This document shows, piece after piece, positions 42,115-58,271 of a stretch of 64,000 nt of DNA. This stretch comes from Telluria aromaticivorans. GTDB taxonomy: Bacteria > Pseudomonadota > Gammaproteobacteria > Burkholderiales > Burkholderiaceae_D. How positions within the stretch are numbered: position 1 is the stretch's first letter; every line of letters begins with the position of its first letter. The notes below the pieces were generated by a model. That model ran no database searches. It worked only from the letters and a program-made list of their open reading frames with translations, and was not told the origin of the DNA. Made by a program: the position numbers and the translations under genes. The DNA is taken from contig NZ_JABAIV010000001.1 of assembly GCF_013003915.1 (NCBI RefSeq), forward strand, positions 868,001 to 932,000, written 5' to 3'.

Positions 42115-43524
42115 ATGCGCATGCGCCAATTACCTGTTTTGCTGGCCGGGCTCACTTTCTCGCTGTCGGCGGTCGCCGCCACCGCGGACCAGTGGACCCT
42201 GCCGGTCAATGTCAAGAAGTTAGAGAACGGCCTGACGGTCATCGTCACCGAAGACCACAGTTCGCCGACCGTCGGCGTCTCGGTCGTCTACCACGTCGGC
42301 ATGCGCCTTGAGCCGAAGAACCGCACCGGCTTCGCCCACCTGTTCGAGCACCTGATGTTCCAGGGCACCCCGAACGCCAAGAAGGGCGTGTTCGACACGA
42401 CCATCACCGGCGGCGGTGGCCGCAACAACGGTTCGACCCGTCCCGACTTCACCAACTACATCGAGACGGCGCCGGTGTCGGCGCTGGAACCGATCCTGTG
42501 GCTGGAAGCGGACCGCATGAAGACCCTCGACTTCAACGCCGCGACGCTGAAAAACCAGCAGGACGTGGTCAAGGAAGAGATCCGCGTCAACGTGAAGAAC
42601 CAGCCCTACGGCGGCTTCATGTGGATCGACATCAGCCAGCAGGCCTTCCAGAAATGGGAGAACAACCACGACGGCTACGGCAGCTTCGAAGACCTCGAGA
42701 ACGCCAGCCTGGACGACGTGCGCGCCTTCCACCGCGACTACTACGGCCCGAACAACGCGGTGATCGCGATCGCCGGCGACATCACCCCGGCCCAGGGCTT
42801 CGCGCTGGCGCAGAAATACTTCGGCAAGATCCCTGCCCGCCCGACCCCGAAAGCGACCGACTTCAGTGAAGGCCTGAACACCGTCGAGAAGCGCGTCGTG
42901 CAGAGCGACGCCCTGGCCCAGGTGCCGGCAGTCGCCGCCGCCTGGAAGATCCCGCCGCGCGGCCACAAGGACCAGGCCGCGGTTGCGGTGCTGGCCGAAG
43001 TGCTGGCCGGCGGCGACGCTTCGCTGTTCTACCAGGGCCTGGTCAAGGGCCGCGAGATCGCGCTCAATGTCGACACCCTGTTCGGCCTGACCGGCCCGTT
43101 CGAATACGACGGCCCGACCCTGCTGACCGTGTTCGCGCTGTACAAACCGAACAGCAATGCCGACGCGCTGCTCAAGGCGATGGACGAGGAAATCGGCAAG
43201 GTCGCGCAAAACGGCGTCGACGCCGCCACCCTCAAGCGCGTCAAGACCCGCATGCTGGCCGACTGGAACAACCAGATGGAAAGCTTCATCAACCGCGCCG
43301 ACATGATGGCCAAGATGCAGGTGCTGTGGGGCGACGCCAACGTGGTCAACAAGATCCCCGGCTGGATCGAAGGCGTGACTTCGGAAGACATCCAGCGCGC
43401 TGTCCGAACCTACCTGGTGCCGACCAACCGTACCGTCATCGACCGCAAGCCGGCTGCGATGCTCGCGGCGCCTGCCGCCGCTGCCGCCACCCCAACGACT
43501 GCGCCTGCCGGCGCTGCAAAATAA
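42115..43524 (+). CDS. M16-family zinc metallopeptidase, catalytic member
   Basis: 469 aa. Signal peptide MRMRQLPVLLAGLTFSLSAVAA, then the pitrilysin-type inverted zinc motif HLFEH (75-79) in GFAHLFEHLMFQGTPN, with a downstream Glu in the helix KNQQDVVKEEIRVN as third ligand. Two M16 half-domains are present. The C-terminus is Ala/Pro/Thr-rich. It is coupled to the next M16 gene, whose AAGGAG begins at this stop. Probably a periplasmic peptidase; substrate unknown. Confidence 0.94.
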   Translation: MRMRQLPVLLAGLTFSLSAVAATADQWTLPVNVKKLENGLTVIVTEDHSSPTVGVSVVYHVGMRLEPKNRTGFAHLFEHLMFQGTPNAKKGVFDTTITGGGGRNNGSTRPDFTNYIETAPVSALEPILWLEADRMKTLDFNAATLKNQQDVVKEEIRVNVKNQPYGGFMWIDISQQAFQKWENNHDGYGSFEDLENASLDDVRAFHRDYYGPNNAVIAIAGDITPAQGFALAQKYFGKIPARPTPKATDFSEGLNTVEKRVVQSDALAQVPAVAAAWKIPPRGHKDQAAVAVLAEVLAGGDASLFYQGLVKGREIALNVDTLFGLTGPFEYDGPTLLTVFALYKPNSNADALLKAMDEEIGKVAQNGVDAATLKRVKTRMLADWNNQMESFINRADMMAKMQVLWGDANVVNKIPGWIEGVTSEDIQRAVRTYLVPTNRTVIDRKPAAMLAAPAAAAATPTTAPAGAAK

Positions 43525-43535
43525 GGAGCGCATCG

Positions 43536-44948
43536 ATGAAAAAACTGATGCTCGCAGTTGCTGTCTCTTTGGCGTTCGCGCCGGCAGCCTTCGCCGCGCC
43601 TGCCGCGGAAAAAGAACTGGCCATGCCGGCCTATGGCAAGGACAAGCCCATCCCGGTCCCGAAGATCGCCAAGAAGACCCTGTCGAACGGCCTGACCGTG
43701 TGGGTCGTGCCACGCAAGGGCCTGCCGCGCGTGGACTTCGTGCTGGCCGTGCGTAACGCCGGTTTTGCCGCGGATTCGCCGCAGACCCCTGCCTTCGCCA
43801 CCATGATGGCCGGCCTGCTCAGCGAAGGCACCGCCAAGCGCGACTCGCGCGCCATCGCCGAAGCCGCGCAAGGCATGGGCGGCGAGATCGGCGCCAGCGC
43901 CAACTCGGACGGCATCGTCGTCTCGGGCAATGCGCTGTCCTCGCAAGCCGGCCAGATGGCCCAGCTGCTGGCCGAGGTGGCCCGCACCCCGGCCTTCCCG
44001 CAGAACGAAGTGCAGCTGGCGAAAACCAATGCGCTGCAGGCCCTGCGCGTGGCCGAAACCCAGCCGACCTTCCGCGCCGAGCGCGCGATCAGCAAGGCCG
44101 TCTACGGCGACCACCCGTACAGCCGCACCACCGCCACGGTCGAAGCGATCAACGCCGTGACCCAGGACATGCTGCGCGCCGAACACGCCCGCCGCGTGCG
44201 CCCGGACCGCGCCCTGCTTGTGATCACCGGCCGCATCACCGAAGCCGCGGGCATGAAGCTCGCGCAGCAGGCGTTCGGGGACTGGAAGGCAAGCGGTGCG
44301 GCGCCTGTCGACACCGCCGCCGCCCCGGCTTCGGCCAAGCCGGCACGCATCCTGCTGCAGCGTAACGGCAGCGTGCAGTCGACCCTGCGCCTGGGCGCGC
44401 CCGGCATCGCCGCCAGCGCCGAGGACCAGATCCCGCTGCGCCTGGCCAGCACCATCCTCGGCGGCGGCTTCTCGAGCCGCGTGAACATCAACCTGCGCGA
44501 AGAAAAGGGTTACACCTACGGGGCCTCGGCGGGTGCTCGCATGAACCGTGCGGGCGGCGCGATCATCGGCGGCGCCGACGTGCGCAACGAAGTGACCGGC
44601 GCGGCGCTGAACGAATACTTCGGCGAGTACAAGCGCATCGGCCTTGAGCTGGTGCAGCCGAAGGAAATGGAGATGAACAAGCGCTACGTCGCCGGCGGCT
44701 ACATGATCAACAACCAGCTGCAGCGCTCCGTCGCCGGCACGCTGGCCCAGAACTGGCTGGTCGGCCTGCCGCCGGAATTCCTTGGCGAATACGTGCCGCG
44801 CATCCTGAAGGTGACCCCGGAGCAGGTGCGTGACGTGTCGAAGAAGTATTTCTCGCCTGAGAACCAGTCGATCGTGGTGGTCGGCGACCAGGCCGCGGTG
44901 GGTGAGCAGCTGAAGGCGTTTGGGGAGTTTACGGTGCAGGAGAAGTAA
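43536..44948 (+). CDS. M16-family peptidase-like protein, non-catalytic member
   Basis: About 470 aa. Signal peptide MKKLMLAVAVSLAFAPAAFAAP, then two M16 domains. At the place of HxxEH it has FATMMAGLLSEGT, so no zinc site; it keeps the Arg/Tyr pair of the second domain (LREEKGYTYGASAGAR), which binds substrate in active partners. This is the usual inactive half of a heterodimeric M16 protease. The ATG at 43536 follows an AAGGAG that overlaps the TAA stop of the upstream gene. A terminator follows 24 bases after the stop. Confidence 0.93.
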   Translation: MKKLMLAVAVSLAFAPAAFAAPAAEKELAMPAYGKDKPIPVPKIAKKTLSNGLTVWVVPRKGLPRVDFVLAVRNAGFAADSPQTPAFATMMAGLLSEGTAKRDSRAIAEAAQGMGGEIGASANSDGIVVSGNALSSQAGQMAQLLAEVARTPAFPQNEVQLAKTNALQALRVAETQPTFRAERAISKAVYGDHPYSRTTATVEAINAVTQDMLRAEHARRVRPDRALLVITGRITEAAGMKLAQQAFGDWKASGAAPVDTAAAPASAKPARILLQRNGSVQSTLRLGAPGIAASAEDQIPLRLASTILGGGFSSRVNINLREEKGYTYGASAGARMNRAGGAIIGGADVRNEVTGAALNEYFGEYKRIGLELVQPKEMEMNKRYVAGGYMINNQLQRSVAGTLAQNWLVGLPPEFLGEYVPRILKVTPEQVRDVSKKYFSPENQSIVVVGDQAAVGEQLKAFGEFTVQEK

Positions 44949-45169: not shown

Positions 45170-45487
45170 CTAGTGGTTGGCGAGCTTCATCAACACCAGT
45201 CCGCAAACAATCAACACCGCGGCAATCACGCGCGTCAGGTTCACCTGCTCTCCCAGCAGCGTAATCCCCACCACGAACGCCCCCACCGCACCGATCCCGG
45301 TCCAGATGGTATACGCCGTCCCCAGTGGAATAGTCCGCATCGCCGCGGCAAGCAAAACGAAGCTGGCCGCCATGGCGACCAGGGTGACGACGGTGGGCCA
45401 CAGCCTGCTGAAGCCCTCAGACTGCTTCATCGCATACGCCCACACGACTTCGAAGATTCCCGCTACCAGCAACATGATCCAGGCCAT
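45170..45487 (-). CDS. gdx: SMR-family guanidinium exporter (Gdx/SugE type)
   Basis: 105 aa, four membrane helices, small multidrug resistance family. The essential membrane glutamate is Glu13 in GIFEVVWAYAMKQSEGF; the KQSEGF segment and GTAYTIWTGIGAVGAF are typical of the Gdx (SugE) subtype, which exchanges guanidinium for protons, rather than the Qac drug exporters. The strongest support is the leader: a probable guanidine-II riboswitch directly precedes it. The start ATG has AAAGGAG 9 bases upstream. It lies just beyond the hybrid kinase gene on the same strand, and a repeat abuts its 3' end. Confidence 0.93.
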   Translation of the reverse strand: MAWIMLLVAGIFEVVWAYAMKQSEGFSRLWPTVVTLVAMAASFVLLAAAMRTIPLGTAYTIWTGIGAVGAFVVGITLLGEQVNLTRVIAAVLIVCGLVLMKLANH

Positions 45488-45574: not shown

Positions 45575-47476
45575 CTAGCCTTTGAGGGCCCGCTCCAGGT
45601 CGTCCAGCTCGGCCGGCTTGACCAGGTGGGCGTCGAAGCCGGCCTCCAGGGCGCGCTTGCGGTCTTCCGGCGAACCGTAGCCGGTGTGGGCTACCAGGCG
45701 GATGCCGCTAAGGGCCGGGTTCTGCTTGATGCGGCGCGCGACCTCGTAGCCGTCGATACCCGGCAGGCCGATGTCGAGCACGATCACCTGCGGCCTGTGG
45801 TGCAGCGCCAGTCCCTCGATCTGCGAGGCGTCCGAGGTGGTGCAGGTCTCGTAGCCCATTTCGGCCAGCAGGAAGCCCATCATCTCCATGGCGTCGATGT
45901 TGTCGTCGACCAACAGCACGCGCATGCCGCTGCCACCCGAGTCGGCGGCCGGATGGCATTCCATCGTGGGCGCGATCGATGCGACGCGCAGCAGGGGCAG
46001 CTCCACCGTGAAGGTGCTGCCCATCCCGATGCCGGGGCTCTCGGCCATCAGGCGGCCGCCATGCAGCTCCAGCAGGTGCGACACCAGCGACAGGCCGATG
46101 CCCAGCCCTTCGGGCGCGCGGTCGGGCGGGACGTCGACCTGGGCGAACATGCCGAAGATGCGCGGCAGGTTGTCCTCGGCGATGCCGATGCCGGTGTCGT
46201 GCACCGAGATGCGCACGTGGTGCTCGCCACGCAGGCTGGCGGAGATGGTAATGTCGCCGCCCTGCGGCGTGAACTTGGCGGCGTTGTGCAGCAGGTTGCC
46301 GATCGACTGGGCCAGGCGCACCGGGTCGCCGGACACCCACACTTCCTGCTCCGGCAGTTTCACCGCCAGGCGGTGGCGGCGTGCCGTGATCAGTGGCCCG
46401 GCGGTCTCGATGGCCTGGTTGACCACCGTGCCCAGGTTCACGTCGTCGCGGCGCAGCACGATCTTGCCTTCCGAGATGCGCGCCACGTCCAGCAGGTCGT
46501 CGACCAGGTGCGCCAGGTGGTCGACCTGGCGCGTGATGACTTCGCGCGCGCGCGCCTGGCGTTCGCCGGAGCTGTCGCCCTCGGTGCCCAGCAGCGCGGC
46601 CGCATTGCGGATCGGGCTGAGCGGATTGCGCAGTTCGTGGGCCAGCGTGGCCAGGAACTGGTTCTTGTTGCGGTCGGCCGTGCGCAGCAGCGCCTCCATT
46701 TCCTTGCGCGCGGTAATGTCGCTGGTCACGCGCGCCACGCGGTAGACGTCGCCGCGCTGGCCACGCACCGGGAACAGGCGGTCGCGCACCCAGCGCGTCT
46801 TGCCGTCGGTCCCGGACAGGCGGAATTCCTCGTCGTAGTGCGGCATCAGGGCCAGCTGCTCCCAGCGCTGCCCCATGCGGAGCCGGTCGTCCGGATGGAC
46901 CGCGTCGAGCCAGGACGCAGGACGCCCGCGCAAGGCCTCGACGCTGCGTCCCCACAGCGCCGGATAGGCAGGGCTGACGTAGACCAGCGCGCCGTCCGGC
47001 ACGCTGAACATCCAGAACACGTCGTCGATGTTGTCGGTGATCTGGCGGAAGCGTTCTTCGCTGTCGCGCAGCTCGACCTGGGTCTGGCGCATGCGCACCA
47101 GCGCATTGACGTTGGCGATCAGCTCGTCGGCCTCGATCGGCGCGGCCAGGTAATTGTCGGCGCCGCCTTCGAGGCCGCGGATCTTGTCGGCGCGCCCGGT
47201 CAGCGCGGCGGAGGTCTGCAGCACCAGCACCATGCTGCTATCCGGGTTGGCCTTGATGCGCCGGCACACTTCGATGCCGTTAATGTCGGGCAGCTTGACG
47301 TCGAGCAGCACCAGCGTCGGGTGCTGCTCGTGCACGATCTCGAGCGCGTCGGTGCCGTTGGCCGCCTCGATGACCTCGAACCCGGCACTTTGCAGGATCC
47401 GGGTCTTGGCGTAGCGCGCCCCGTCGTTGTCGTCGACATTGAGGATCGTGGGGGTCTTGGTCGGGTGGAAAGTCAT
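45575..47476 (-). CDS. Hybrid sensor kinase: REC-PAS-HisKA-HATPase-REC
   Basis: About 633 aa, no membrane segment. N-terminal receiver (Asp59 in LVLLDVKLPD), PAS domain (~140-258; SEERFRQITDNIDDVFWMF), dimerisation/phosphoacceptor helix with His280 in AHELRNPLSPIRN, ATPase domain (NLLHNAAKF, DTGIGIAE, GLGIGLSLV) and a C-terminal receiver (Asp568 in VIVLDIGLPG). It can both receive and send phosphoryl groups. The ATG at 47476 overlaps the stop of the upstream kinase gene (ATGA). It is the last gene of the stressosome operon, so it is a likely output node. There is no DNA-binding or diguanylate cyclase domain, so the final target is elsewhere. Confidence 0.93.
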   Translation of the reverse strand: MTFHPTKTPTILNVDDNDGARYAKTRILQSAGFEVIEAANGTDALEIVHEQHPTLVLLDVKLPDINGIEVCRRIKANPDSSMVLVLQTSAALTGRADKIRGLEGGADNYLAAPIEADELIANVNALVRMRQTQVELRDSEERFRQITDNIDDVFWMFSVPDGALVYVSPAYPALWGRSVEALRGRPASWLDAVHPDDRLRMGQRWEQLALMPHYDEEFRLSGTDGKTRWVRDRLFPVRGQRGDVYRVARVTSDITARKEMEALLRTADRNKNQFLATLAHELRNPLSPIRNAAALLGTEGDSSGERQARAREVITRQVDHLAHLVDDLLDVARISEGKIVLRRDDVNLGTVVNQAIETAGPLITARRHRLAVKLPEQEVWVSGDPVRLAQSIGNLLHNAAKFTPQGGDITISASLRGEHHVRISVHDTGIGIAEDNLPRIFGMFAQVDVPPDRAPEGLGIGLSLVSHLLELHGGRLMAESPGIGMGSTFTVELPLLRVASIAPTMECHPAADSGGSGMRVLLVDDNIDAMEMMGFLLAEMGYETCTTSDASQIEGLALHHRPQVIVLDIGLPGIDGYEVARRIKQNPALSGIRLVAHTGYGSPEDRKRALEAGFDAHLVKPAELDDLERALKG

Positions 47477-48846
47477 TCGTTCGTTCCATGGTGGCCATCC
47501 CTGGATGGATGGCGGCGCGGCAGTTCCATTGAGAAGGTCGATCCGGCACCCACCGCGCTGGTGACCAGGATCCGCCCGCCGAGCAGGTCGGCCAGTTTGC
47601 GGCAAAGCGGTAGCCCCAGGCCGGTCCCCTTGCTGCGCCGTTGCAGGGGGTGCTCGATCTGGCTGAATTCCTCGAAAATCAGGTGCAGGTTGTCCGGGCT
47701 GATGCCGATCCCGGTGTCGGTGACGTCGAAGCGGATCGTGTCCGCCACCGGGTCCAGCGCGGCCGAGACGCGCACCGAACCGTTCTCGGTGAACTTGAGT
47801 GCGTTCGAGATGAAATTGCGCAGGACCTGGGAGATCATGCCTTCGTCGGACTCGAAGGCGTCCGGGATCTCATCCGGCTCGAACACCAGTTCCACCCGGG
47901 TTTCATCCACCAGGGGGCGCAGCATTCCCTTCAGCGCACGGAACAGGTTATCCACCACCACCGGGTCGAAATGCACCTCGACCTTGCCGGCCTCGATCTT
48001 GGCCAGGTCGAGCAGGTCGTTCACCAGTTCGGACAAATCGTTGGCGGCAGTGGCGATGAACTGCACCTGGCGCTCCTGCTCGACGGTGAGGTCGCCGTCC
48101 ATGCGGCTGAGCAGCAATTGGGCCAGTGCCCGGATCGACGACAGCGGCGTGCGCAGTTCGTGGCTGGTATTGGACAGGAAGCGCGACTTCATTTCGTCGG
48201 CCTTGCGCAGGCGCTCGGCCTTGTCTTCGATCTCGGCGTACAGCGCGACGATGCCGCGGTTGGTGTCTTCCAGCTCGCGCGTCAGCGACATCAGGTCTTC
48301 CTGGCGCTCGCGCAGTTCCGACAGCGTGGCGACCAGTTCCTGGTTCTGCAGCTGCATTTCGTGCAGGGGATTGGCCACCGGCGTCTGGGCGAGGCGCGCG
48401 CTGATGTCGAGCAGCATGGCGCGTTCTATCTTTGCACTGCGCGGCAGGATCTTGCGCATCGTGACTTTACCCATGCCGGCGCCGGCAGGCTCGGTTTCGC
48501 AATCGTCCATCAGGCGATGCGCCGTGACCAGGGCCAGCTCCGGCACCGACGAGAGGCCGGCCTCGGGCGGCAGCTCCTGGCGCGCTGCCTCGCGCGGCCC
48601 GGTGCCGGCGACGATCGTCACCTCCAGTTTCTGGTGGCGCCCTCCGTCGTCGAAAGTGAACGTGACGCGCCCGCCGGAACCCTGGTGGCAGGCGCTGCGC
48701 GCCACTTCGGACACCGCCGTGCCGATGCGCACCTGGTCCTGCTGCGAAAAGCCCAGCAGCGCCGACAGCTGGCGCGCGCGCTGGCGCACCTGCACCACGT
48801 CCTCGTCATTGTCGAGGGCGACATTCAGGATGCGCTGCGCGCTCAC
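47473..48846 (-). CDS. Histidine kinase with N-terminal RsbT-like domain
   Basis: About 457 aa, soluble. Residues ~1-138 resemble RsbT (LALVTAHRLMDDCE, ending GKVTMRKIL), but the ATP-site Asn of the N-box is replaced by Ser51 (SEVARSACHQG), so this part may be a non-catalytic docking module. A coiled coil (~165-220) leads to a canonical kinase core: His229 in NTSHELRTPLSSIR, N-box NFISNALKF, DTGIGISPDN and GTGLGLPLC. The GTG at 48846 overlaps the phosphatase gene stop (GTGA). I infer that it links the stressosome to phosphotransfer. Confidence 0.9.
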   Translation of the reverse strand: MSAQRILNVALDNDEDVVQVRQRARQLSALLGFSQQDQVRIGTAVSEVARSACHQGSGGRVTFTFDDGGRHQKLEVTIVAGTGPREAARQELPPEAGLSSVPELALVTAHRLMDDCETEPAGAGMGKVTMRKILPRSAKIERAMLLDISARLAQTPVANPLHEMQLQNQELVATLSELRERQEDLMSLTRELEDTNRGIVALYAEIEDKAERLRKADEMKSRFLSNTSHELRTPLSSIRALAQLLLSRMDGDLTVEQERQVQFIATAANDLSELVNDLLDLAKIEAGKVEVHFDPVVVDNLFRALKGMLRPLVDETRVELVFEPDEIPDAFESDEGMISQVLRNFISNALKFTENGSVRVSAALDPVADTIRFDVTDTGIGISPDNLHLIFEEFSQIEHPLQRRSKGTGLGLPLCRKLADLLGGRILVTSAVGAGSTFSMELPRRHPSRDGHHGTNE

Positions 48847-49889
48847 CCGGCCACTCCCGCCGGCACACTGGTCCGGCGCACGACCAGCACCATCGCGTCG
48901 TCGCGGCGGCGGATGAAGTCGCGCATCAGCACTGCCGCGATGAGCGCGGTGCTGCGTCCCTGCAAGCCGGGGTACTTGTCCAGGTCCCACTGGGTCTGGA
49001 TGCCATCCGAATGCAGGATGCAGATCGCGCCGGGCGGGAACGGTACTGAAAATTCCTGCACCTTGCGCATGTTGTGGCCGACGATCCCATTGTGCGACAC
49101 CAGGGCGCGCCGCGTGTCGTCGTAGACATAGCCGGCGATGTTGCCGATGCCGGCAAAACGCAGCTCCGAGGTCGCATAGTCGATGCGCGCCACTGCCAGC
49201 GCAGCGCCGCGCGTGCCGCGCAATGCCTCGTGTGCGGCCTGCATCAGGTCAGTAGCAGTGTTCGGGATGGGCGCAGGCTTGGCCAGCACGCCGATCGCCG
49301 CGCTAGAGGCGCGTGCAGCGTTCGGCCCGTGCCCGAGTCCGTCGGACGCCACCAGCGTGGCGCTACTACGCATGCAACGGACACCCCAGCCATCGCCGCA
49401 CTCGTCTTCGCCCGCCAGGGGGGTCAGCAGCGCGCCCACCTCGACGCCGCAGGGATCGGGAGGCGGCTGGTCGCGCCACAGCCGCATGAAGAAGGCAGCA
49501 CCCTTGCCCTCCTGCGAATAGACGTCGAATTCGTCGGCCTGGCGCCGCATGGCGCCCAGCCCAGTGCCGGCAGTGCCGGCGGTCGAGACCCCGTCGACCA
49601 GGCTGGCCGACAGGTCCAGGATGCCAGGTCCCTCGTCGATTGCCAACACGTCGACGCCGACGCCGGCGGTCGACTGTGCCGGCCCGATGTGGATCACGCC
49701 TTTGTCCGCGTGCTTGAGGATGTTGGTGGCTGCCTCGGTGATGATCAGGGCCAGCTTGCCGGCCCGGGTTTCGCTGAAACCCAGGCTGTCCGCCAGCTTC
49801 TGCCCTTCCCTGCGCGCCGCCGCGACATCGCTGGCGTGTTCGACCGAACACACCAGCTGCGGCGTCAATGAGCTGATCAGCGTTTCCAT
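48843..49889 (-). CDS. Stressosome feedback phosphatase: RsbT/RsbW-like ATPase domain fused to SpoIIE/RsbX-type PP2C
   Basis: 348 aa. Residues ~10-135 form a GHKL anti-sigma-type ATPase domain with intact N-box (Asn56 in TEAATNILKH), DEGPGI and GTAGTGLGAMRRQADEFDVYS. Residues ~145-340 form a small PP2C/SpoIIE phosphatase with metal-binding Asp in ASDGLGHGPNA, LHSDGIQT and DDAMVLV, the RsbX-like short form. In Bacillus, RsbX removes phosphates from RsbR/RsbS to reset the stressosome; that is the expected role here. It overlaps rsbT by 13 bases. Confidence 0.9.
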   Translation of the reverse strand: METLISSLTPQLVCSVEHASDVAAARREGQKLADSLGFSETRAGKLALIITEAATNILKHADKGVIHIGPAQSTAGVGVDVLAIDEGPGILDLSASLVDGVSTAGTAGTGLGAMRRQADEFDVYSQEGKGAAFFMRLWRDQPPPDPCGVEVGALLTPLAGEDECGDGWGVRCMRSSATLVASDGLGHGPNAARASSAAIGVLAKPAPIPNTATDLMQAAHEALRGTRGAALAVARIDYATSELRFAGIGNIAGYVYDDTRRALVSHNGIVGHNMRKVQEFSVPFPPGAICILHSDGIQTQWDLDKYPGLQGRSTALIAAVLMRDFIRRRDDAMVLVVRRTSVPAGVAG

Positions 49890-50344
49890 TTGACTACCAG
49901 CACAGCTGTCCCTTCTCCTGGACGGCTATCGACCTCGAATTCGTCCACCAGGCGTTTCGATCCGCCAAAGCCGAGACCGAGGCCACCACCCGTGGTGAAC
50001 CCGTCGCGCAGCGCGCTGGCGATATCGGGAATGCCGGGCCCGGCATCGATGAAAATCAGGCAGACACCGTTGCGCACGCCGTCGCTGAGCGCGTCGAGAC
50101 AGACTTCGCCGCCGCCGCCGTACTTGATCGTATTGCGCGCCAGTTCACTGGCCGCCGTCACCAGCTTGGTCTGGTCCACCAGCGACAGCGCGATTGCGAC
50201 CGCGCGTTCACGCACCTGTTTGCGCAGTCCCACGACATCCTCGTCCGACCGCAGGGGCAGGATCACCCGCCCGGTGCGTTGCTGGCGGTGGTAGTCCAGC
50301 AACCCGGTTTCGAACGGGACTGCATTGGTTTGCGCGTCTCCCAT
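49877..50344 (-). CDS. rsbT: Serine kinase RsbT (switch protein of the stressosome)
   Basis: 155 aa GHKL-fold kinase. The N-box SELARNTIKYGGGG (Asn71), DAGPGIPDI and GLGLGFGGSKRLVDEFEV are all intact. RsbT is held by RsbR/RsbS and, under stress, phosphorylates them and is released to activate its target. Here no RsbU phosphatase or sigma-B gene follows, so its downstream partner is probably one of the kinases in this operon. The N-terminus is ~20 residues longer than in Bacillus RsbT. It shares one base with rsbS (TAATG). Confidence 0.93.
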   Translation of the reverse strand: MGDAQTNAVPFETGLLDYHRQQRTGRVILPLRSDEDVVGLRKQVRERAVAIALSLVDQTKLVTAASELARNTIKYGGGGEVCLDALSDGVRNGVCLIFIDAGPGIPDIASALRDGFTTGGGLGLGFGGSKRLVDEFEVDSRPGEGTAVLVVKWKR

Positions 50345-50700
50345 TAGCTGAAGCTCTTTCCTAACAGCGTCATGCCTTTTTCGACATTCAGCGCCGTCTT
50401 CACGCCATGCAGGGTCAGGCCGAGTTCGACCAGGGTAATGGCCACCGCCGGCTGCATGCCGACCACCACCGTCTGGGCGTCGAGCACGCGCGCCATGGCA
50501 GCGGTATTGCTGATCATGCGGCCGATGAAGGAATCGACCAGGTCGAGCGCCGAAATATCGATCAGCACGCCCTTGGCGGCATCGCGCACGATCCGCTCGG
50601 TCAGGTCGTCCTGCAGCGTCATGGCGAGGCGGTCATGCATGTCGACCTGAATCGTTACCAGCAGCAGGTCGCCCATGCGGAGGATAGGAATCCGTTCCAT
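50344..50700 (-). CDS. rsbS: STAS-domain antagonist RsbS
   Basis: 118 aa single STAS domain, the core scaffold of the stressosome. The phosphorylation site is Ser57 in LVDSFIGRMI, equivalent to Ser59 of Bacillus RsbS, and the surrounding sequence (IDISALDLVDSF, VVVGMQPAVAITLVELGL) is strongly conserved. It binds and sequesters RsbT. Located between rsbR (9-base gap) and rsbT (one shared base). Confidence 0.94.
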   Translation of the reverse strand: MERIPILRMGDLLLVTIQVDMHDRLAMTLQDDLTERIVRDAAKGVLIDISALDLVDSFIGRMISNTAAMARVLDAQTVVVGMQPAVAITLVELGLTLHGVKTALNVEKGMTLLGKSFS

Positions 50701-50709
50701 GACCTGTAC

Positions 50710-51573
50710 TTACGCCTTGGTGGTGGTGATGGTGGTGCCGGTGCGCTCGAGCGCGACCATGAAGGCGTCGGCCAGCGTGGCCTTGGTGACCACATCTTCG
50801 AGGTTCACGCCCAGGTGCACGATGGTTTGCGCAATCTGCGGACGGATGCCGCTGATGATGCAGTCCGCGCCCATCAGGCGGGCCGCCGCGATGGTCTTCA
50901 TCAAGTGCTGGGCCACCAGGGTGTCCACGGTCGGCACGCCGGTGATGTCGATGATGGCGATGACGGCGCCGGTGTCGACGATCTTTTGCAGGATGTTTTC
51001 CATCACCACCTGGGTGCGCGCCGAGTCCAGGGTACCGATCAGCGGCAGCGCCAGGATGCCGTTCCACAGCTTCACCACCGGGGTCGACAGCTCCAGCAGT
51101 TCCTGCTGCTGGCGCACGATGATCTGGTCCTTGGTCTTCTGGAACATCTCGATGGTGAACAGGCCAAGCTGGTCGAGCAGCGTGCTGACCAGCCACGATG
51201 CACGGGCCAGGCCTTGCTGGTCGTCGGCGAAACCGTCGCGCAGGCGCGCGAACACCGGCTGCTTGAACGAGAACACGAAGGTCGCGGTGTCGCTCGGCGT
51301 CGAGCCCGACTTGGCGCGGGAGGACGAAATGTCCGCCAGCAGGTCGCGTACGTCGTCCCACGAGCGGTGCTCGATATTTTCCAGTTCGCCGCTGCGCGTG
51401 GCGGCAATGAAGGCGGCCAGGAACTGCCGGGTGTGCGTGCGCAGCTGCTCGCGCGATGCGCTGGTACCGCGGACCATCAGCGATTCGAGTTGTGCCAGCC
51501 ATTCGGCGCCAATGGCGGCCTGTTCCTGCTGTAGCAATTGGCTGATGTGGCTCGCGAGATCCGTCGTCGTCAT
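50710..51573 (-). CDS. rsbR: Stressosome sensor RsbR (globin-like N-terminus plus STAS)
   Basis: About 287 aa. The C-terminal STAS domain (~160-280) matches RsbR closely: IIDITGVPTVDTLVAQHL and SGIRPQIAQTIVHLGV contain the Thr residues phosphorylated by RsbT in Bacillus. The N-terminal ~150 residues are helical and probably form the non-heme-globin-like sensory turret, but I see no ligand motif. The ATG at 51573 is preferred over 51579 because AAGGGA is then 7-8 bases away. First gene of the six-gene unit that runs to 45575. Confidence 0.93.
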   Translation of the reverse strand: MTTTDLASHISQLLQQEQAAIGAEWLAQLESLMVRGTSASREQLRTHTRQFLAAFIAATRSGELENIEHRSWDDVRDLLADISSSRAKSGSTPSDTATFVFSFKQPVFARLRDGFADDQQGLARASWLVSTLLDQLGLFTIEMFQKTKDQIIVRQQQELLELSTPVVKLWNGILALPLIGTLDSARTQVVMENILQKIVDTGAVIAIIDITGVPTVDTLVAQHLMKTIAAARLMGADCIISGIRPQIAQTIVHLGVNLEDVVTKATLADAFMVALERTGTTITTTKA

Positions 51574-51755
51574 CTTCATTTCCCTTGTCGAATATTGGAG
51601 GTAGTACGACACCGGGCCCATGTGTGGGCCGGCGCCATTGGAATTCTGTCAAACGGCCAACTATACCATTCGGACTGTTAGATAGATGGCACTGTTGAAT
51701 TGATTGCAGGACAAATTTGCTTCCGCGCGAAAAGTCGTGGCACAGGCCTACGAAG

Positions 51756-51781: not shown

Positions 51782-54700
51782 TCATGGCTGTCGTTTCCCG
51801 GGCTCCCCGTCTCGCCGGTGCGCGAACTCATAAAGCAAGGGCAGCAACAGCAGCGTGAGCATGGTGGACGACAAGATGCCGCCGATGACGACCGTCGCCA
51901 GTGGCCGCTGGACTTCCGCGCCGGTACCGGTCGCCAGGGCCATCGGCACGAAACCCAGCGAAGCCACCAGCGCCGTCATCAGCACCGGCCGCAGCCGTCC
52001 CAAGGCTCCCTCATGGATGGCGGGAACCAGCGGCCGGCCCGCCTCGCGCAGGCTGCGGATGAAGGAAACCAGCACCAGGCCGTTCAGCACCGCCACGCCG
52101 GACAGCGCGATGAAGCCCACCGCCGCGGAGATCGACATGGGAATCCCGCGCATCCACAGGGCGAAGATTCCCCCGGTCAGGGCAAACGGTACGCCGGAGA
52201 ACACCAGCAGGCCGTCGCGCAGGTTGTTGAAGACCAGGTAGAGCAGGACGAAGACCAGCGCCAGCGCCGCCGGCACCACCACCTGCAGGCGTTCGGCGGC
52301 CGCCTGCAGGTGCTCGAACTGCCCTCCCCAGGCTATCCAGTAGCCGACCGGGACCGCCACCCCGGCCTGTACCCGTTGCTGCGCATCGCGCACAAACGAG
52401 CCGATGTCGCGCCCGCGCACATTGGCTGTGACGACGACGCGGCGCTTGCCCTGTTCGCGGCTGAGCTGGTTGGGGCCGGGAGCCAGGTCGAAGCTTGCGA
52501 TTTCGCCGAGGGTGACGAAGCGTTGTGTGCTCCCTTGCGTCGGCGGCAGCGGCACCGGCAGGCGCTGCAGTGCGTCGATATCGGCCCGCACCGCCTCCGG
52601 CAGGCGCACGACGATGTCGAAGCGGCGGTCGCCATCGAACAGCGTGCCGGCTTCGCGCCCGGCGGTCGCGGTGGCGACCAGCTCTTGCACTTCGCTGATG
52701 TTCAGTCCCATGCGCGCCGCGCGATCGCGGTCGACCCGGACCTGCAGCATAGGCAGCCCGGTGGTCTGCTCGACCTGGACTTCGCTGGCGCCCGGCACCT
52801 TGCGCAGCACGGCCGCCACCCCCTGCGCGGTGGCGTTCAGCACCTCGAGGTCGTCGCCGAACACCTTGACCGCCACGTCGCTGCGCACGCCGGAAATGAG
52901 TTCGTTGACCCGCAGCTGGATCGGCTGGCTGAATTCGTAGCTGTTGCCGGGCAGCTGGCCGAGTGTGCGCTGGATCGCGCCCAGCAGCTCGTCGCGGCTC
53001 TTCTTCGGCGCCGGCCATGCTGCTTCCGGCTTGAGCATGATGATCCCGTCCGCCACGTTCGGCGGCATCGGGTCGGACGCGATTTCGGCCGTGCCGATGC
53101 GCGCGAAGACGCGCTCGATCTCGGGGAAGCTGCGCATCAGGGTCGTCTCGATCTGCTGCTGCATTTTTACCGACTGGCTCAGGCTGGTGCCGGGCACCCT
53201 GACCGTCAGCACCGCCAGGTCGCCTTCGTCGAGTTCGGGCACGAACTCGGTGCCGAGGCGCGTAGCGAGCAGCGCGGACAAGGCCAGCACGATGCCGGCG
53301 AAGGCCAGCACCACCGGCCGGTTGGCCATGGCATAACGCAGGCAGGGTTCGTACAGGCGGCGCGCGGCGTGCATCAACCGGCTTTCTTTTTCGGTAACGG
53401 TCTTGCCGATGAAGAGCGCCACCGCGGCCGGCACGAAAGTCACCGACAGGATCATGGCGCCGACCAGCGCGGTGACGACCGTGATCGCCATCGGATGGAA
53501 CATCTTGCCCTCGATACCGGTCAGCACGAAGATCGGCAGGTAGACGATCATGATGATCAGCTGGCCGTAGATGAGCGGCCGGCGTGCCTCGCGCGCAGCC
53601 TGGAACACTTCCTCGAAACGCTCGTCCAGCGTGAGCGCTCTGCCAAGGCGCACCTGCGCCGCGGCGATGCGGCGCACGCAGTTCTCGACGATCACGACCG
53701 CGCCGTCGACGATGATCCCGAAATCGAGCGCGCCCAGGCTCAGCAGGTTGGCGCTGACATTGGTGGCGACCATGCCGGAAAACGTGAACAGCATCGCCAG
53801 CGGAATGACCATCGCCGTCAGCAGCGCGGCGCGCAAATTCCCCAGGAAGACGAACAGCACGGCGACGACCAGCACAGCACCTTCGAGCAGGTTGTTGCGG
53901 ACGGTCGCGATCGCGCGCTCGACCAGCACCGAGCGGTCGTAGACGGTCACCGCCTTCACGCCCTTGGGCAGCGTGCGGTTGATCTCGACCATCTTGCGGT
54001 CGACCGCGCGCGACACCGCGCGGCTGTTCTCGCCGATCAGCATGAACACCGTGCCCAGCACCACTTCCTGGCCATTCTCGGTCGCGGCCCCGGTGCGCAG
54101 TTCGCGGCCCACCGCTACCGTAGCCACGTCGCGCACGCGCACCGGCGCACCGCGGATGGTGGACACCACGATGTTGCCGATGTCCGCGATCGACCCGACC
54201 TGCCCCGGCGCCCGCACCAGGTATTGCTCGCCCTCGCGCTCGATATAGCCGGCGCCGACGTTCCCGTTGTTCTTCTCGAGCGCCCCGACCACGTCCGCCA
54301 GCGCGAGTCCGTAGGAGGACAGCAGCGCCATGTCCGGCGCCACCAGGTATTCCTTGTTGTAGCCGCCGATCGAATTGATCTCGGTGACGCCGGCGACGTT
54401 GCGCAGCTGCGGCTTGATGATCCAGTCTTGGATCTCGCGCAGGTCGGTCGGCGTGTAGGGGCTGCCATCCGGCTTCTTCGCGCCGGGCACCGACTCCACC
54501 GTCCACAAATAGATTTCGCTCAGGCCCGTGGCGATCGGGCCCATCGCCGGCACCACGCCGGCCGGCAGCTGCTCGCGCGCGTCCTGGATGCGCTGGCTGA
54601 CCAGCTGGCGCGCGAAATGCAGGTCGGTGCCCTCCTTGAACACCACCGTGATCTGCGACAGGCCGTAGCGCGACAGCGAACGGTATTGCTCGAGATGCGG

Positions 54701-54928
54701 CAGGCCCGCGAGCAGCGACTCGATCGGGTAGGTGATGCGCTGCTCGGTCTCCAGCGGTGAGTAGCCCGGCGCGGGCGTGTTGATCTGCACCTGGACATTG
54801 GTCACGTCCGGCACGGCATCGATCGGCAGGCGCCCGTAGTTATAGATGCCGGCCATCGCCATCGCCAGCACGGCGACCATGACGAGCCAGCGGTGCGCGA
54901 TCGCGCCCTGGATAAGTCGGTTGAACAT
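51782..54928 (-). CDS. czcA: Heavy-metal efflux RND transporter, CzcA type
   Basis: 1048 aa, 12 membrane helices with two large periplasmic loops, the proton-driven pump of a tripartite exporter. The helix-4 signature DFGIIVDGAVVIVEN (around residue 400) is that of the HME branch exporting Zn/Co/Cd, as in CzcA, and differs from the Cu/Ag-type CusA motif. N-terminal RLPIDAVPDVTNVQVQINT and PIESLLAGLP are also family-typical. It follows czcB by 12 bases and ends the operon czcI-C-B-A. Exact metal is inferred from the motif and from the CadR-type regulator. Confidence 0.94.
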   Translation of the reverse strand: MFNRLIQGAIAHRWLVMVAVLAMAMAGIYNYGRLPIDAVPDVTNVQVQINTPAPGYSPLETEQRITYPIESLLAGLPHLEQYRSLSRYGLSQITVVFKEGTDLHFARQLVSQRIQDAREQLPAGVVPAMGPIATGLSEIYLWTVESVPGAKKPDGSPYTPTDLREIQDWIIKPQLRNVAGVTEINSIGGYNKEYLVAPDMALLSSYGLALADVVGALEKNNGNVGAGYIEREGEQYLVRAPGQVGSIADIGNIVVSTIRGAPVRVRDVATVAVGRELRTGAATENGQEVVLGTVFMLIGENSRAVSRAVDRKMVEINRTLPKGVKAVTVYDRSVLVERAIATVRNNLLEGAVLVVAVLFVFLGNLRAALLTAMVIPLAMLFTFSGMVATNVSANLLSLGALDFGIIVDGAVVIVENCVRRIAAAQVRLGRALTLDERFEEVFQAAREARRPLIYGQLIIMIVYLPIFVLTGIEGKMFHPMAITVVTALVGAMILSVTFVPAAVALFIGKTVTEKESRLMHAARRLYEPCLRYAMANRPVVLAFAGIVLALSALLATRLGTEFVPELDEGDLAVLTVRVPGTSLSQSVKMQQQIETTLMRSFPEIERVFARIGTAEIASDPMPPNVADGIIMLKPEAAWPAPKKSRDELLGAIQRTLGQLPGNSYEFSQPIQLRVNELISGVRSDVAVKVFGDDLEVLNATAQGVAAVLRKVPGASEVQVEQTTGLPMLQVRVDRDRAARMGLNISEVQELVATATAGREAGTLFDGDRRFDIVVRLPEAVRADIDALQRLPVPLPPTQGSTQRFVTLGEIASFDLAPGPNQLSREQGKRRVVVTANVRGRDIGSFVRDAQQRVQAGVAVPVGYWIAWGGQFEHLQAAAERLQVVVPAALALVFVLLYLVFNNLRDGLLVFSGVPFALTGGIFALWMRGIPMSISAAVGFIALSGVAVLNGLVLVSFIRSLREAGRPLVPAIHEGALGRLRPVLMTALVASLGFVPMALATGTGAEVQRPLATVVIGGILSSTMLTLLLLPLLYEFAHRRDGEPGKRQP

Positions 54929-54940
54929 GGCAGCTCCGTG

Positions 54941-56122
54941 TTAGTCGTGGTGTCCGGCTTCGCCCTTGCCCTGCTCCGCCTTGATGGCGAAGCTTCCCTG
55001 GGCGGCGTAGCGGTCCCCGGCATTCAGGCCGGAGACGATCTCGACGAAGCGGCCATCGGAACGCCCGGTCTCCACCACACTGGCGACGAAGCCCTGCGGC
55101 ACACGCTTGTAGACCACCTGCCTGCCCTCGTGGGTCTGGATCGCCGCCCTCGCAACGGTCACCGGCGCCTGCGCGCTGCCGGTGACGATGTCGACGTTGA
55201 CGGCCAAGCCCGGACGCCATGCACCCTGCGGATTGGCCAGCACCACGCGCGCCCGCGCCGAACGCGATTCTTCGCCGATCAGGGAGCTGACGAAGCTCAC
55301 CTTGCCGGGCGCGGTGGTGCTGGAGGCGATCGAGCGGATGACGGCGTCGGTGCCGACCCGCACGATGTCGAGGTCCTTGGCGGGCACCACCACGTCGGCC
55401 CAGACGGTGGCGAGGTCGGTAACCGTGAAGATGCGGGTGTCGGCGCCGACGACTTCGCCCAGGGCGATGTGCTTTTCCACGACCACGCCATCGAAGGGCG
55501 CGCGCACCTGCAGCCGGTTCGACGAGGAGCTGCCTGCGGCGCCGGCGCCGAGCGCCGCCAGCTTCTGGCGCACCTCCTGCACGGCGATGTTCGCCTCAAC
55601 CAGCTCCTGCCCGGCCTTCTGGTAGTCCTGGCGTGCGGAGATCTTTTCTTCCCACAGCGTTTTTTCCGATGCATGCACGCTGCGCGCATACGCGGCCCGT
55701 TTCTCGGCCACCGCCAGGGCGGCACGCTGTTCCGCGATCTCGGCGCTGGCCACCACGGCCAGCACCTCGCCCTTGCGCACCACCTGCCCGAGGGTGGCCG
55801 GGACGGCTTCCACTGCGCCCGCCGCACGCGGCGTGACGTGGGCGGTTCGGTCTTCATTGAGCGCCACCTGGCCCGGCATCCGGATGAAGGTATCGAGCCG
55901 CATCGGCGCTGCCGTTGCCAGCGTGATGCCGGCGCTGGCGACTTGCTGGTCGGTGAAGCGGACGATGCCGTCTTCGGCATGTCCTTCCGGGGCGTCGTCC
56001 GCGTGCTCTTCGGTTTTGGCATGGACGGTGGCTTGCGGGCGGTCCTTGACGAGGACGAAGGCGCCGAATGCGATCGCCACTGCCAGCATGGCGGCGATGA
56101 TCCTGATTTGCTGCTTGTTCAT
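54941..56122 (-). CDS. czcB: Periplasmic adaptor (membrane fusion) protein, CzcB type
   Basis: 393 aa. An N-terminal membrane anchor or signal (IIAAMLAVAIAFGAFVLV) is followed by a short His/Asp/Glu-rich segment (~35-52, KTEEHADDAPEGHAEDG) that may bind metal. Then come lipoyl and alpha-hairpin regions (VRKGEVLAVVASAEIAEQRAAL) and beta-barrel domains typical of adaptors bridging pump and outer-membrane channel. Its 5' end overlaps czcC by four bases (ATGA). Confidence 0.92.
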   Translation of the reverse strand: MNKQQIRIIAAMLAVAIAFGAFVLVKDRPQATVHAKTEEHADDAPEGHAEDGIVRFTDQQVASAGITLATAAPMRLDTFIRMPGQVALNEDRTAHVTPRAAGAVEAVPATLGQVVRKGEVLAVVASAEIAEQRAALAVAEKRAAYARSVHASEKTLWEEKISARQDYQKAGQELVEANIAVQEVRQKLAALGAGAAGSSSSNRLQVRAPFDGVVVEKHIALGEVVGADTRIFTVTDLATVWADVVVPAKDLDIVRVGTDAVIRSIASSTTAPGKVSFVSSLIGEESRSARARVVLANPQGAWRPGLAVNVDIVTGSAQAPVTVARAAIQTHEGRQVVYKRVPQGFVASVVETGRSDGRFVEIVSGLNAGDRYAAQGSFAIKAEQGKGEAGHHD

Positions 56123-57354
56123 GGGTTCTCCTGGGTCGAAGGGCCGACGAGCCGTTCGATATCGCTGGCCGCGCGATGGCTTTCCGCGACGGCTTTCAGG
56201 TATTGGTGCCTGGACTGGAAAAAGGCGCGCTGGGCATCGAGCACGTCCAGCATCCCGAACTTGCCGAGTTCATAGCCGCGGCCCGCGGCCTGGAATGCGG
56301 CCTGCGCGGCAGGGGCGATCTCGGCATCGATCATGGCGGCTTCTTCCAGCGCGGCAGTGAGCCGCGCATGCGCCTGGGCCAGTTCGGCATGCAGGCGCAG
56401 GCGTTCGGCCTCGAGCTCGTCGCGCGCCTTGTCCACCCGGCGCAGCGATGCGAGCAGCGCGCCCTCATTACGGTTGAATAGCGGCAGCGGTATGGCCAGG
56501 CCGAGCACCGCTTGTCGTCGATCGTCCGGGTATTCGCGACGGGTGCCGACGATCAGGGTCACGTCCGGCGTGCGTTTTGTCCCTTCGACCCGGGCCAGGG
56601 CCTGGCGGTGCGCGACCTCGGCATGCACGCGCCCGATCGCCGGCGACTGCGCGAGGCGTGCTTCAAGCTGCGCCAAAGGCGGCGCGTCAGGCAGATCAGC
56701 CGACATATGTGCCGGCGAAGTCGCGGCAATGTTGATATCGGCGGCCTTCCCGCCCCACAATGCCGCCAACCGAATGCGGGCGCTGGCCAAATCGCGTGCG
56801 GCCTGCAGCGTCTCGATGCGGGCGTTCGCCTGCGCGACCCCGGCACGGGATGCCTCCAGCGGCGCCGCCTTGCCCGCCTCGACCCGCAGCGCCGCCGCAC
56901 TTGCTGCGCGCTGCGCCAGCGCCGCCAGTTCCTGCGCCAGCCGGTGCTGCTCGCTGGCCGCGACGGCCTCATGGAAGGCAGCAATGGCATCCGCGCGAAC
57001 CTGCGCACGCAGCGCGTCGAGCGCTGCGATGGCGAGATCCTGCTCGCGCCGGGCCGCGTCAAGCCGCGCGGCGCGCTTGCCGCCCAGCTCAAATGGAATG
57101 CCTAGTTGCGCGGTCGTGGTGCGATTGGTCCGATCCTGCCCTTCGCGCAGGATTTCCAGTTCAGGATTGGGCAAGGCCCGCGCCTGCGTGATGGCGCCTC
57201 CCTGCGCCGCGACTTCATGCGCGGCGGCGCTCAATGCGGGGTTGGCCTGCAAGGCCAGCTTGATTGCGGCGTCGCGCGTCAGCGCGTCGGCGGCGCTTGC
57301 AGGAGCGACGACAATTCCCGCCACCAGGGCGAGTACGACAAGGTGATGCTTCAT
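56119..57354 (-). CDS. czcC: Outer-membrane efflux channel, CzcC type (TolC family)
   Basis: About 411 aa. Signal peptide MKHHLVVLALVAGIVVAPASA, then two TolC-type repeats rich in long Ala/Leu/Arg helices. LGIPFELGGKRAARLDAARRE and LGLAIPLPLFNRNEG are hallmarks of the CzcC/CusC-like subgroup. It forms the outer-membrane exit for the CzcA pump. The ATG at 57354 is chosen because it begins the signal peptide. czcI lies 89 bases upstream. Confidence 0.92.
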   Translation of the reverse strand: MKHHLVVLALVAGIVVAPASAADALTRDAAIKLALQANPALSAAAHEVAAQGGAITQARALPNPELEILREGQDRTNRTTTAQLGIPFELGGKRAARLDAARREQDLAIAALDALRAQVRADAIAAFHEAVAASEQHRLAQELAALAQRAASAAALRVEAGKAAPLEASRAGVAQANARIETLQAARDLASARIRLAALWGGKAADINIAATSPAHMSADLPDAPPLAQLEARLAQSPAIGRVHAEVAHRQALARVEGTKRTPDVTLIVGTRREYPDDRRQAVLGLAIPLPLFNRNEGALLASLRRVDKARDELEAERLRLHAELAQAHARLTAALEEAAMIDAEIAPAAQAAFQAAGRGYELGKFGMLDVLDAQRAFFQSRHQYLKAVAESHRAASDIERLVGPSTQENP

Positions 57355-57443
57355 GGTCCGGCTCCGAATGAGTGGTCTATTCGGCGGGACACGGGCGCAC
57401 TGCCCCAGGGGCAAGGCGCATGAATGGTTCCGGTCCCGCAGCG

Positions 57444-57863: not shown

Positions 57864-58271
57864 ATGCTGAAGATCGGCGAACTGGCGAAGCAATCTGGCT
57901 GCCCGGTGGAGACCATTCGCTACTACGAACGCATCGGGCTGCTGATGCCGCCGCAACGGGAGGCGAACAATTATCGCGCTTATAACGAGCGCCATGCAGA
58001 GCGCCTGCAGTTCGTTCGCCATTGCCGCGCGCTCGACATGGGCCTGGACGAGATCCGCGTGCTGCTCGACGTGCGCGACCGCCCCGAGCAGGAATGCACC
58101 GACGTCAACGAACTGCTGGACCGCCACATCCGCCACGTGACCGGCAGGATCGCCGAGTTGGCTGCTCTCGAAGCCCAGCTGCGGCAGCTGCGCGGCTGCT
58201 GCGTGGCGACGCAGGCGGCCAGTTGTTGCGGGATCCTGCATGCGCTGTCCGAGCGCGAGGCGGTGCGATGA
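57864..58271 (+). CDS. cadR: MerR-family Cd(II)/Pb(II)/Zn-responsive regulator (CadR/PbrR type)
   Basis: 135 aa. N-terminal winged-helix domain (MLKIGELAKQSGCPVETIRYYERIGLL), long coiled dimer helix, and the metal loop with Cys78 (QECTD), Cys112/113 (RGCCV) and Cys121/122 (SCCG). These correspond to C77, C112 and C119 of CadR/PbrR, with two additional adjacent Cys. It binds the palindrome in the 90-base divergent promoter and should switch on czcI-czcCBA when metal binds. Cd, Pb or Zn cannot be separated from sequence. Confidence 0.92.
   Translation: MLKIGELAKQSGCPVETIRYYERIGLLMPPQREANNYRAYNERHAERLQFVRHCRALDMGLDEIRVLLDVRDRPEQECTDVNELLDRHIRHVTGRIAELAALEAQLRQLRGCCVATQAASCCGILHALSEREAVR

Follow-up and report, generated by a model that had tools for sequence, protein, structure and literature searches.

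A stressosome operon of Telluria aromaticivorans that continues into two histidine kinases, the first carrying a degenerate RsbT-like domain

We analysed a stretch of 64,000 nucleotides of Telluria aromaticivorans (the window, within which all coordinates are given) that contains an operon joining the stressosome genes for RsbR, RsbS and RsbT to a phosphatase and two histidine kinases. Its six genes, numbered here in operon order, span positions 51621-45575 and all lie on the minus strand. Gene 1 (50710..51621) encodes RsbR, with RsbRD_N and STAS domains, and starts at the ATG at 51621 or at another in the same frame at 51573. Gene 2 (50344..50700) encodes RsbS, a single STAS domain, and gene 3 (49877..50344) the switch kinase RsbT, matched by HATPase_c and HATPase_c_2; the three encoded together make up a stressosome module. 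Gene 4 (48843..49889) fuses an HATPase_c_2 ATPase of the RsbT/RsbW type (49470-49868) to an RsbX-like PP2C phosphatase of the SpoIIE family (48873-49445). Gene 5 (47473..48846, with a GTG start) is a histidine kinase in which an HATPase_c_2 domain, a conserved coiled coil (about 48202-48351), HisKA (47986-48192) and HATPase_c (47512-47847) follow one another. Gene 6 (45575..47476) is a hybrid kinase made of an N-terminal receiver, hereafter REC_N (47081-47455), PAS (46691-47059), HisKA and HATPase_c (45992-46666) and a second receiver, REC_C (45584-45919). The open reading frames and Pfam agree with the identities and places that a first-pass annotation had given to the six genes. The spacing it reported is also exact: 9 bases between RsbR and RsbS (50701-50709), then overlaps of 1 (RsbS/RsbT), 13 (RsbT/gene 4, 49877-49889), 4 (genes 4 and 5) and 4 (genes 5 and 6).

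The nearest named relatives are Massilia species. In the home genus (that of T. aromaticivorans, whose relatives provide the genus loci and rows below), 35 of 37 genomes, T. aromaticivorans included, contain a match to gene 4. We read the surroundings of gene 4 in 33 of the 34 other genomes with a match, G024 being the one left out. All six genes occur in the same order in 32 of these 33 loci, and the remaining locus stops inside gene 5 at the end of its contig. The flanking genes change: the CusA-like gene lies near the block in 9 of the 33 loci, the multidrug-resistance-type gene in 7 and one of the two M16-type peptidase genes in 20, all lower bounds, as some loci end shortly after the block. 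The order of the six genes is more than chance, because the block is kept in the genus while its flanks vary. The earlier proposal of a single unit thus stands, and we found no close relative in which the kinase genes had been separated from rsbRST.

In this family, a STAS scaffold of RsbR and RsbS binds RsbT, which phosphorylates both on stress. We compared the key residues of the core in the genus and in 80 named loci picked by RsbT similarity (a best-hit sample, of which 71 extend 4 kb or more beyond RsbT). The equivalents of the RsbR phospho-acceptors are S200 (51022-51024) and T234 (50920-50922), numbered from the start at 51621; their aligned counterparts in the solved RsbR chain 7b0u are positions 175 and 209, both T. 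S200 is S in 80/80 named and 33/33 genus loci, and T234 is T in 76 of the 80 named loci (S in the other 4) and in 33/33 genus loci. RsbS aligns over its full length with the solved RsbS chain 6qcm_A (phmmer, E 5.6e-29), and its acceptor equivalent S57 (50530-50532) is S in 80/80 named and 33/33 genus loci. The ATP site of RsbT, i.e., the N-box Asn and the DxGxG motif, is intact in 81/81 rows (the 80 named loci and T. aromaticivorans).

The fusion of ATPase and PP2C phosphatase in gene 4 was recognised in the first-pass annotation and is confirmed by Pfam, but its likeness to the resetting phosphatase RsbX had been missed. The best solved relatives of the phosphatase part are 3zt9 (labelled SpoIIE; E 4.2e-17), which we take to be the Moorella stressosome phosphatase, and RsbX itself, 3w40 (E 1.3e-8), and no RsbU chain is listed among the relatives at E 0.1. 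The four Asp columns of the PP2C domain, placed by the motifs of that family, hold Asp in 75-77 of 77 named rows (the others being gaps) and in 33/33 genus rows. Since the chains nearest to it are of the RsbX type and these columns are kept, gene 4 is best read as a putative reset phosphatase to which an RsbT-type ATPase has been joined, and we ruled out that it is an output phosphatase like RsbU. It differs from a single-domain RsbX in its fusion to HATPase_c_2; in some other genomes ATPase and phosphatase are separate genes. The residues of the ATPase part are kept in 76-77 of 77 rows, its N-box Asn and DxGxG Asp in 77/77.

We then searched for a sigma-B cascade elsewhere. RsbU_N has no match at E 0.001 in 37 genomes (T. 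aromaticivorans, 22 of its genus and 14 of its order), the one control that gave a match being B. subtilis. In the T. aromaticivorans genome no second SpoIIE-type phosphatase was found at E 0.001, gene 4 being the sole match; five STAS matches appear at the same threshold, two of them RsbR and RsbS. No sigma-B-type factor exceeds the curated cut-off, with 8 weaker matches below it. A hidden cascade of RsbU and sigma-B is thus rejected at the thresholds used, as the first-pass annotation had supposed from the locus. No other route having been found, elimination leaves the kinase genes 5 and 6, or else gene 4, as the place of the output. The gene content gives good support to placing the histidine kinases on the output side of the stressosome; to that extent the earlier claim of a stressosome wired to kinases instead of sigma-B is upheld.

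The point of contact may be the N-terminal domain of gene 5 (residues 1-137, 48436-48846). Pfam confirms the RsbT-like domain that had been proposed for this kinase, but the loss of its ATP-site residues had escaped notice. The N-box Asn and the Asp of DxGxG, which mark protein kinases of the RsbT/SpoIIAB type, are each found in 0 of 34 genus rows (33 relatives and T. aromaticivorans), and 9 of 11 loci with the NCBI name Massilia are degenerate at the N-box (L140-L148). Given this motif loss and the substitution pattern below, we call it a pseudo-RsbT domain, i.e., a dead GHKL domain. The state of the ATP site was mapped on a tree of 86 rows, built from RsbS, RsbT and the ATPase and PP2C parts by a quick method with no bootstrap (L156 and L202 left out, 10 rows unlabelled, L196 and five genus rows set as degenerate by hand). 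The degenerate state requires 4 changes, of which at least 3 are forced by well-supported branches. If a lost site cannot come back, these repeated changes are independent losses.

The degeneration is unevenly spread along the domain. We computed ratios of nonsynonymous to synonymous substitution rates (dN/dS) over 34 genus sequences with a simple counting method. Helix 1 and the N-box have a median dN/dS of 0.22 and a mean identity of 88%, as expected of a functional kinase domain (HisKA 0.17 and HATPase 0.22 in the same protein); the coiled coil has 0.18. The half that holds the ATP pocket evolves almost neutrally (dN/dS 0.81, identity 50%), a figure made less reliable by insertions and deletions. 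The two halves have 88% and 51% identity in 43 Massilia rows, and 95% and 81% in the RsbT of Massilia. Of 97 kinase rows, 96 have the Arg of helix 1 (R21, equivalent to R41 in RsbT) and the other has a gap there; R40, E47 and R50 are each kept in 96/97. R21 is kept in 58/58 dead domains and also in 81/81 RsbT. It falls on position 20 of SpoIIAB once ungapped alignments are extended by three and about fifteen residues, and this position is presumably an Arg that binds the sigma factor as well as the STAS protein. Elsewhere in the T. aromaticivorans genome lies a further RsbT-like histidine kinase, an orphan whose ATP site is intact (L120, G000:C19:306512-306877). Such orphan paralogues keep the key residues in 6/6 cases in the genus (6 of 7 were fetched, that of G024 being left out), and one of them, L124 of a second genome in the genus, adjoins an RsbR paralogue.

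Since the first helices are kept and the ATP site is not, the gene 5 domain most likely serves for docking, and this is the mechanism we prefer. RsbR and RsbS would form the STAS scaffold that binds RsbT, and on stress RsbT would phosphorylate S57 of RsbS and S200 and T234 of RsbR, for which the presence of the sites is what we observed. The RsbX-like phosphatase of gene 4 would strip these phosphates and reset the core, and its ATPase may be a second STAS-binding or kinase module. The dead domain would act as a pseudokinase plug that docks gene 5 on RsbT or on the core of RsbR and RsbS, so that a change in STAS phosphorylation would alter docking and, via the conserved coiled coil, the kinase. 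A minimal stressosome with two-component output, in which the pseudo-RsbT domain of gene 5 is the plug, is the best explanation we can offer from these comparisons, although we give it only even chances.

Degenerate RsbT-like domains are also found on another type of enzyme. In five genomes from one family of the phylum (5 of the 150 searched around one source), such a domain is fused to GGDEF (L246, L257, L253, L254 and L261; L275-L279), and in 5/5 loci the fusion comes directly after an RsbT-type ATPase and X. The GGDEF domain is confirmed by Pfam in two loci and by eye in three, whereas Pfam does not see the N-terminal domain. A profile of the five N-terminal domains matches the gene 5 profile at 93% hhalign probability (E 2.6e-7), and two-row profiles match it at 68-71%; unrelated and shuffled single-sequence controls stay at or below 0.3%. 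An RsbR-type STAS gene was called in 5/5 of these loci, and two of their RsbT-type ATPases score best with the gene 4 profile. The kinase that follows S-T-X in L117 matches the gene 5 profile at 89%. In four other loci (L109, L113, L118, L264), the kinase after the stressosome genes has, according to Pfam, RsbU_N instead, a domain to which RsbT is known to bind. We put forward, tentatively and with less confidence than the explanation of the T. aromaticivorans operon, that stressosomes have, in parallel with RsbU_N, a second kind of output plug that has gone unrecognised, namely dead or dying RsbT copies fused to histidine kinases or diguanylate cyclases. An enzyme of this kind would itself take the place of RsbT on the STAS core, and the stressosome would drive His-Asp or cyclic di-GMP signalling by the handing over of a docked pseudokinase and not by the release of RsbT.

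Several observations weigh against docking by dead RsbT-like domains. Among 63 named kinases, 24 are without at least one of three key residues and 39 have an intact ATP site, including the remaining 2 of the 11 Massilia loci (M. frigida L212 and M. atriviolacea L216), which belong to another clade. In an intact clade the first half of the domain is again the more conserved, a weaker contrast but in the same direction (81% against 62%). The equivalent of R21 is kept in 77/77 gene 4 ATPases, and because of this it is a family trait and not proof of STAS docking. Kinases without an RsbT-like domain occupy the place of gene 5 in L158 (a Planctomycete), L185 (Pseudoxanthomonas), L205 (Acidobacterium) and L214 (Dyella). 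With these four, and the seven such chains plus L227 of the phylum sample described below, docking by this domain cannot be universal. Taken singly, GGDEF N-terminal sequences match the gene 5 profile at only 35.5% and 74.9%, and RsbS is a weak call in 3/5 GGDEF loci and absent from 2/5. Kinases of the Vibrio type match singly at 1.4% (L234), 0.2% (L238) and 0.4% (L231), and a profile of L234, L238 and L117 at 52.5%; a search of 117 genomes around the source of L234 returned the query itself only. A dead RsbT-like domain in Vibrio-type kinases is thus a weakened proposal, suggestive in L234 and L238 and not found in L231.

The domain-less kinases bear on the mechanism that the first-pass annotation had favoured, in which released RsbT acts on the kinases. 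RsbT would then bind or phosphorylate gene 5 (or gene 6) directly, perhaps gripping the coil much as it does the N-terminal domain and linker of RsbU, and the pseudo-RsbT domain would be a decaying remnant. Both the place in the chain and the coil are retained by all four named domain-less kinases, and also by L226, L227, L232 and L236, and in the genus the coil is as conserved as HisKA. A query made of the coil alone retrieves gene 5 and, weakly, the orphan paralogue from the T. aromaticivorans genome. There is also a precedent, since RsbT rigidifies the linker of RsbU (PMC12143880) and RsbU_N kinases adjoin stressosome genes (PMC12143880, PMC9237108; the sections of these papers used here). 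However, a query of 95 residues with coil and HisKA also picks up large kinases, mostly at 30-49% identity, in 25 of the 143 genomes searched in the class (T. aromaticivorans included), so we dropped the coil as a unique mark of stressosome partners. RsbU_N, as said, is without a match in the 23 genus genomes searched, and the strong constraint on helix 1 and the N-box is unlike plain decay. In Vibrio, the authors of PMC9237108 report that they obtained no positive interaction between RsbT and the kinase VvD1. We thus regard direct action of RsbT as rather unlikely and keep docking by the pseudo-RsbT domain as our preferred reading.

Downstream of the plug, the phosphate of gene 5 H229 would pass to D59 of REC_N, as conservation suggests. 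H229 is invariant in 43 aligned kinases (T. aromaticivorans and 42 of 53 eligible named kinases, weakly matching actinobacterial domains being missing), and the phospho-acceptor D59 is kept in 58/59 named and 33/33 genus rows. The Lys before Pro that is canonical in receivers is present in 0/59 named and 0/33 genus rows, which sets REC_N apart from standard receivers; the rows were picked by similarity to the T. aromaticivorans receiver, which may favour those that lack the Lys. REC_N is the part common to the genes that follow the kinase, and what lies behind it is swapped by lineage: HK-REC, PAS-HK-REC (HK, histidine kinase; REC, receiver), no recognised domain (L209), or a SpoIIE PP2C phosphatase. 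Because it is common to the chains, REC_N is likely the acceptor of gene 5, a point overlooked in the first-pass annotation, and the simplest reading is that lineages exchange the output behind it. In T. aromaticivorans gene 6 would relay the phosphate via PAS-HK-REC to a further regulator. All six actinobacterial chains scanned (L152, L193, L198, L203, L208 and L210; L196 lay outside the scan) have REC-SpoIIE PP2C in the place of gene 6, and there the signal may be passed back to partner switching on Ser/Thr.

The same gene 6 proteins could be taken to indicate that the kinases are inputs, with genes 5 and 6 feeding signals into the stressosome and their receiver or kinase exerting control over RsbT or the ATPase-phosphatase: gene 6 has a PAS domain and two receivers, and its actinobacterial versions end in a PP2C that could dephosphorylate the STAS proteins of the core. 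Yet RsbR brings a putative sensor of its own (RsbRD_N), the RsbU_N kinases of sister loci occupy the output place, and the exchange of a kinase for GGDEF looks like a swap of outputs, all of which makes an input role improbable.

The chain is not peculiar to T. aromaticivorans. Among the 71 named loci having room downstream, 53 have all six genes in this order, with an RsbT-like domain on the kinase. The same order with a kinase devoid of the RsbT-like domain is found in 3/71, no kinase was called by the profiles used in 10/71, and L190 has no RsbT call in this count. The named loci come from seven phyla (Pseudomonadota, Cyanobacteriota, Acidobacteriota, Planctomycetota, Nitrospirota, Actinomycetota and Bdellovibrionota). 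The survey that the first-pass annotation had proposed thus shows the exact chain to be widespread and not a feature of this genome alone. In an even sample of the phylum (398 genomes), RsbT has a match at E 1e-20 in 41. Among the 39 loci of this sample outside the home genus, our script called the full order in 5, and in L252, L256 and L258 the RsbT-like domain is present on a kinase that scores poorly with the profile. The chain has a kinase lacking the RsbT-like domain in 7 loci, plus L227 (on a short contig); no RsbT was called in 4/39, and the remainder are other arrangements. The order kept across phyla speaks against two systems that are merely co-transcribed, sharing expression with no contact between them, as do the shared RsbT-type fold and the replacement of gene 5 by RsbU_N kinases in other loci. 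That Vibrio authors report no positive result for RsbT and VvD1 (PMC9237108, in the sections used here) would fit such an arrangement, which we nevertheless consider highly improbable. A compact system was also seen in L100-L108, L110-L112, L114 and L119, where an ATPase:PP2C fusion stands beside a single RsbR-like STAS protein and no RsbT was called; L114 has a weak RsbS match, and in L106 and L111 kinase genes lie some kb off.

The coupling of stressosomes to two-component systems has been published before, and rsbRSTX of Vibrio adjoins two-component genes (PMC9237108, PMC10014275 and PMC4976288, as far as the sections used here go). Vibrio vulnificus and V. brasiliensis resemble T. aromaticivorans in having RsbR-S-T and a PP2C followed by kinase and receiver genes (VvD1, VvD2), and in having no sigma-B. 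They differ by a globin-type N-terminus of RsbR and a separate single-domain RsbX, where T. aromaticivorans has RsbRD_N and an ATPase:PP2C fusion; a recognisable RsbT-like domain on the kinase is likewise a feature of T. aromaticivorans. The 2022 Vibrio work states, in the sections used, that RsbU_N was undetected on the majority of the downstream proteins considered (PMC9237108). Kinases with RsbU_N also adjoin RST-phosphatase genes (PMC9237108, PMC12143880, in part), but their N-terminal plug is RsbU_N and not a dead RsbT-like domain. The Moorella stressosome too has a non-sigma output (PMC12143880, PMC4976288), described in the sections used as an RsbU_N-GGDEF protein (PMC12143880), in contrast to the kinases of T. 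aromaticivorans. With Bacillus subtilis and Listeria the operon shares RsbR, RsbS and RsbT with conserved phosphosites and an RsbX-like phosphatase, but neither RsbU nor sigma-B was found in the T. aromaticivorans genome, the RsbX-like domain is fused to an ATPase, and the output is apparently two-component.

Our search of the open-access literature returned no description of a fusion of RsbT-like or pseudo-RsbT domains to a kinase or GGDEF, although a 2005 review of RsbRST modules may mention such fusions, and the novelty of the fusion itself is uncertain. New in this analysis are the finding that the ATP site changed repeatedly, the contrast in constraint between the two halves of the domain and the shared receiver devoid of Lys. 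A pseudo-RsbT domain on an output enzyme would offer a concrete answer, in environmental bacteria, to the question of how Gram-negative stressosomes pass signals on when RsbU and sigma-B are missing. If the proposal is true, pseudokinase docking would be one way in which bacteria join Ser/Thr switches to two-component and cyclic di-GMP signalling.

The surroundings of the operon in T. aromaticivorans were assigned by eye. Upstream lie an RND metal-efflux set (CusA/CusB/CusC-like, 51782-57414) and a MerR-type regulator (57864-58271), and downstream a small multidrug-resistance-type protein (45170-45487) and a pair of M16-type peptidase genes (42115-44948).

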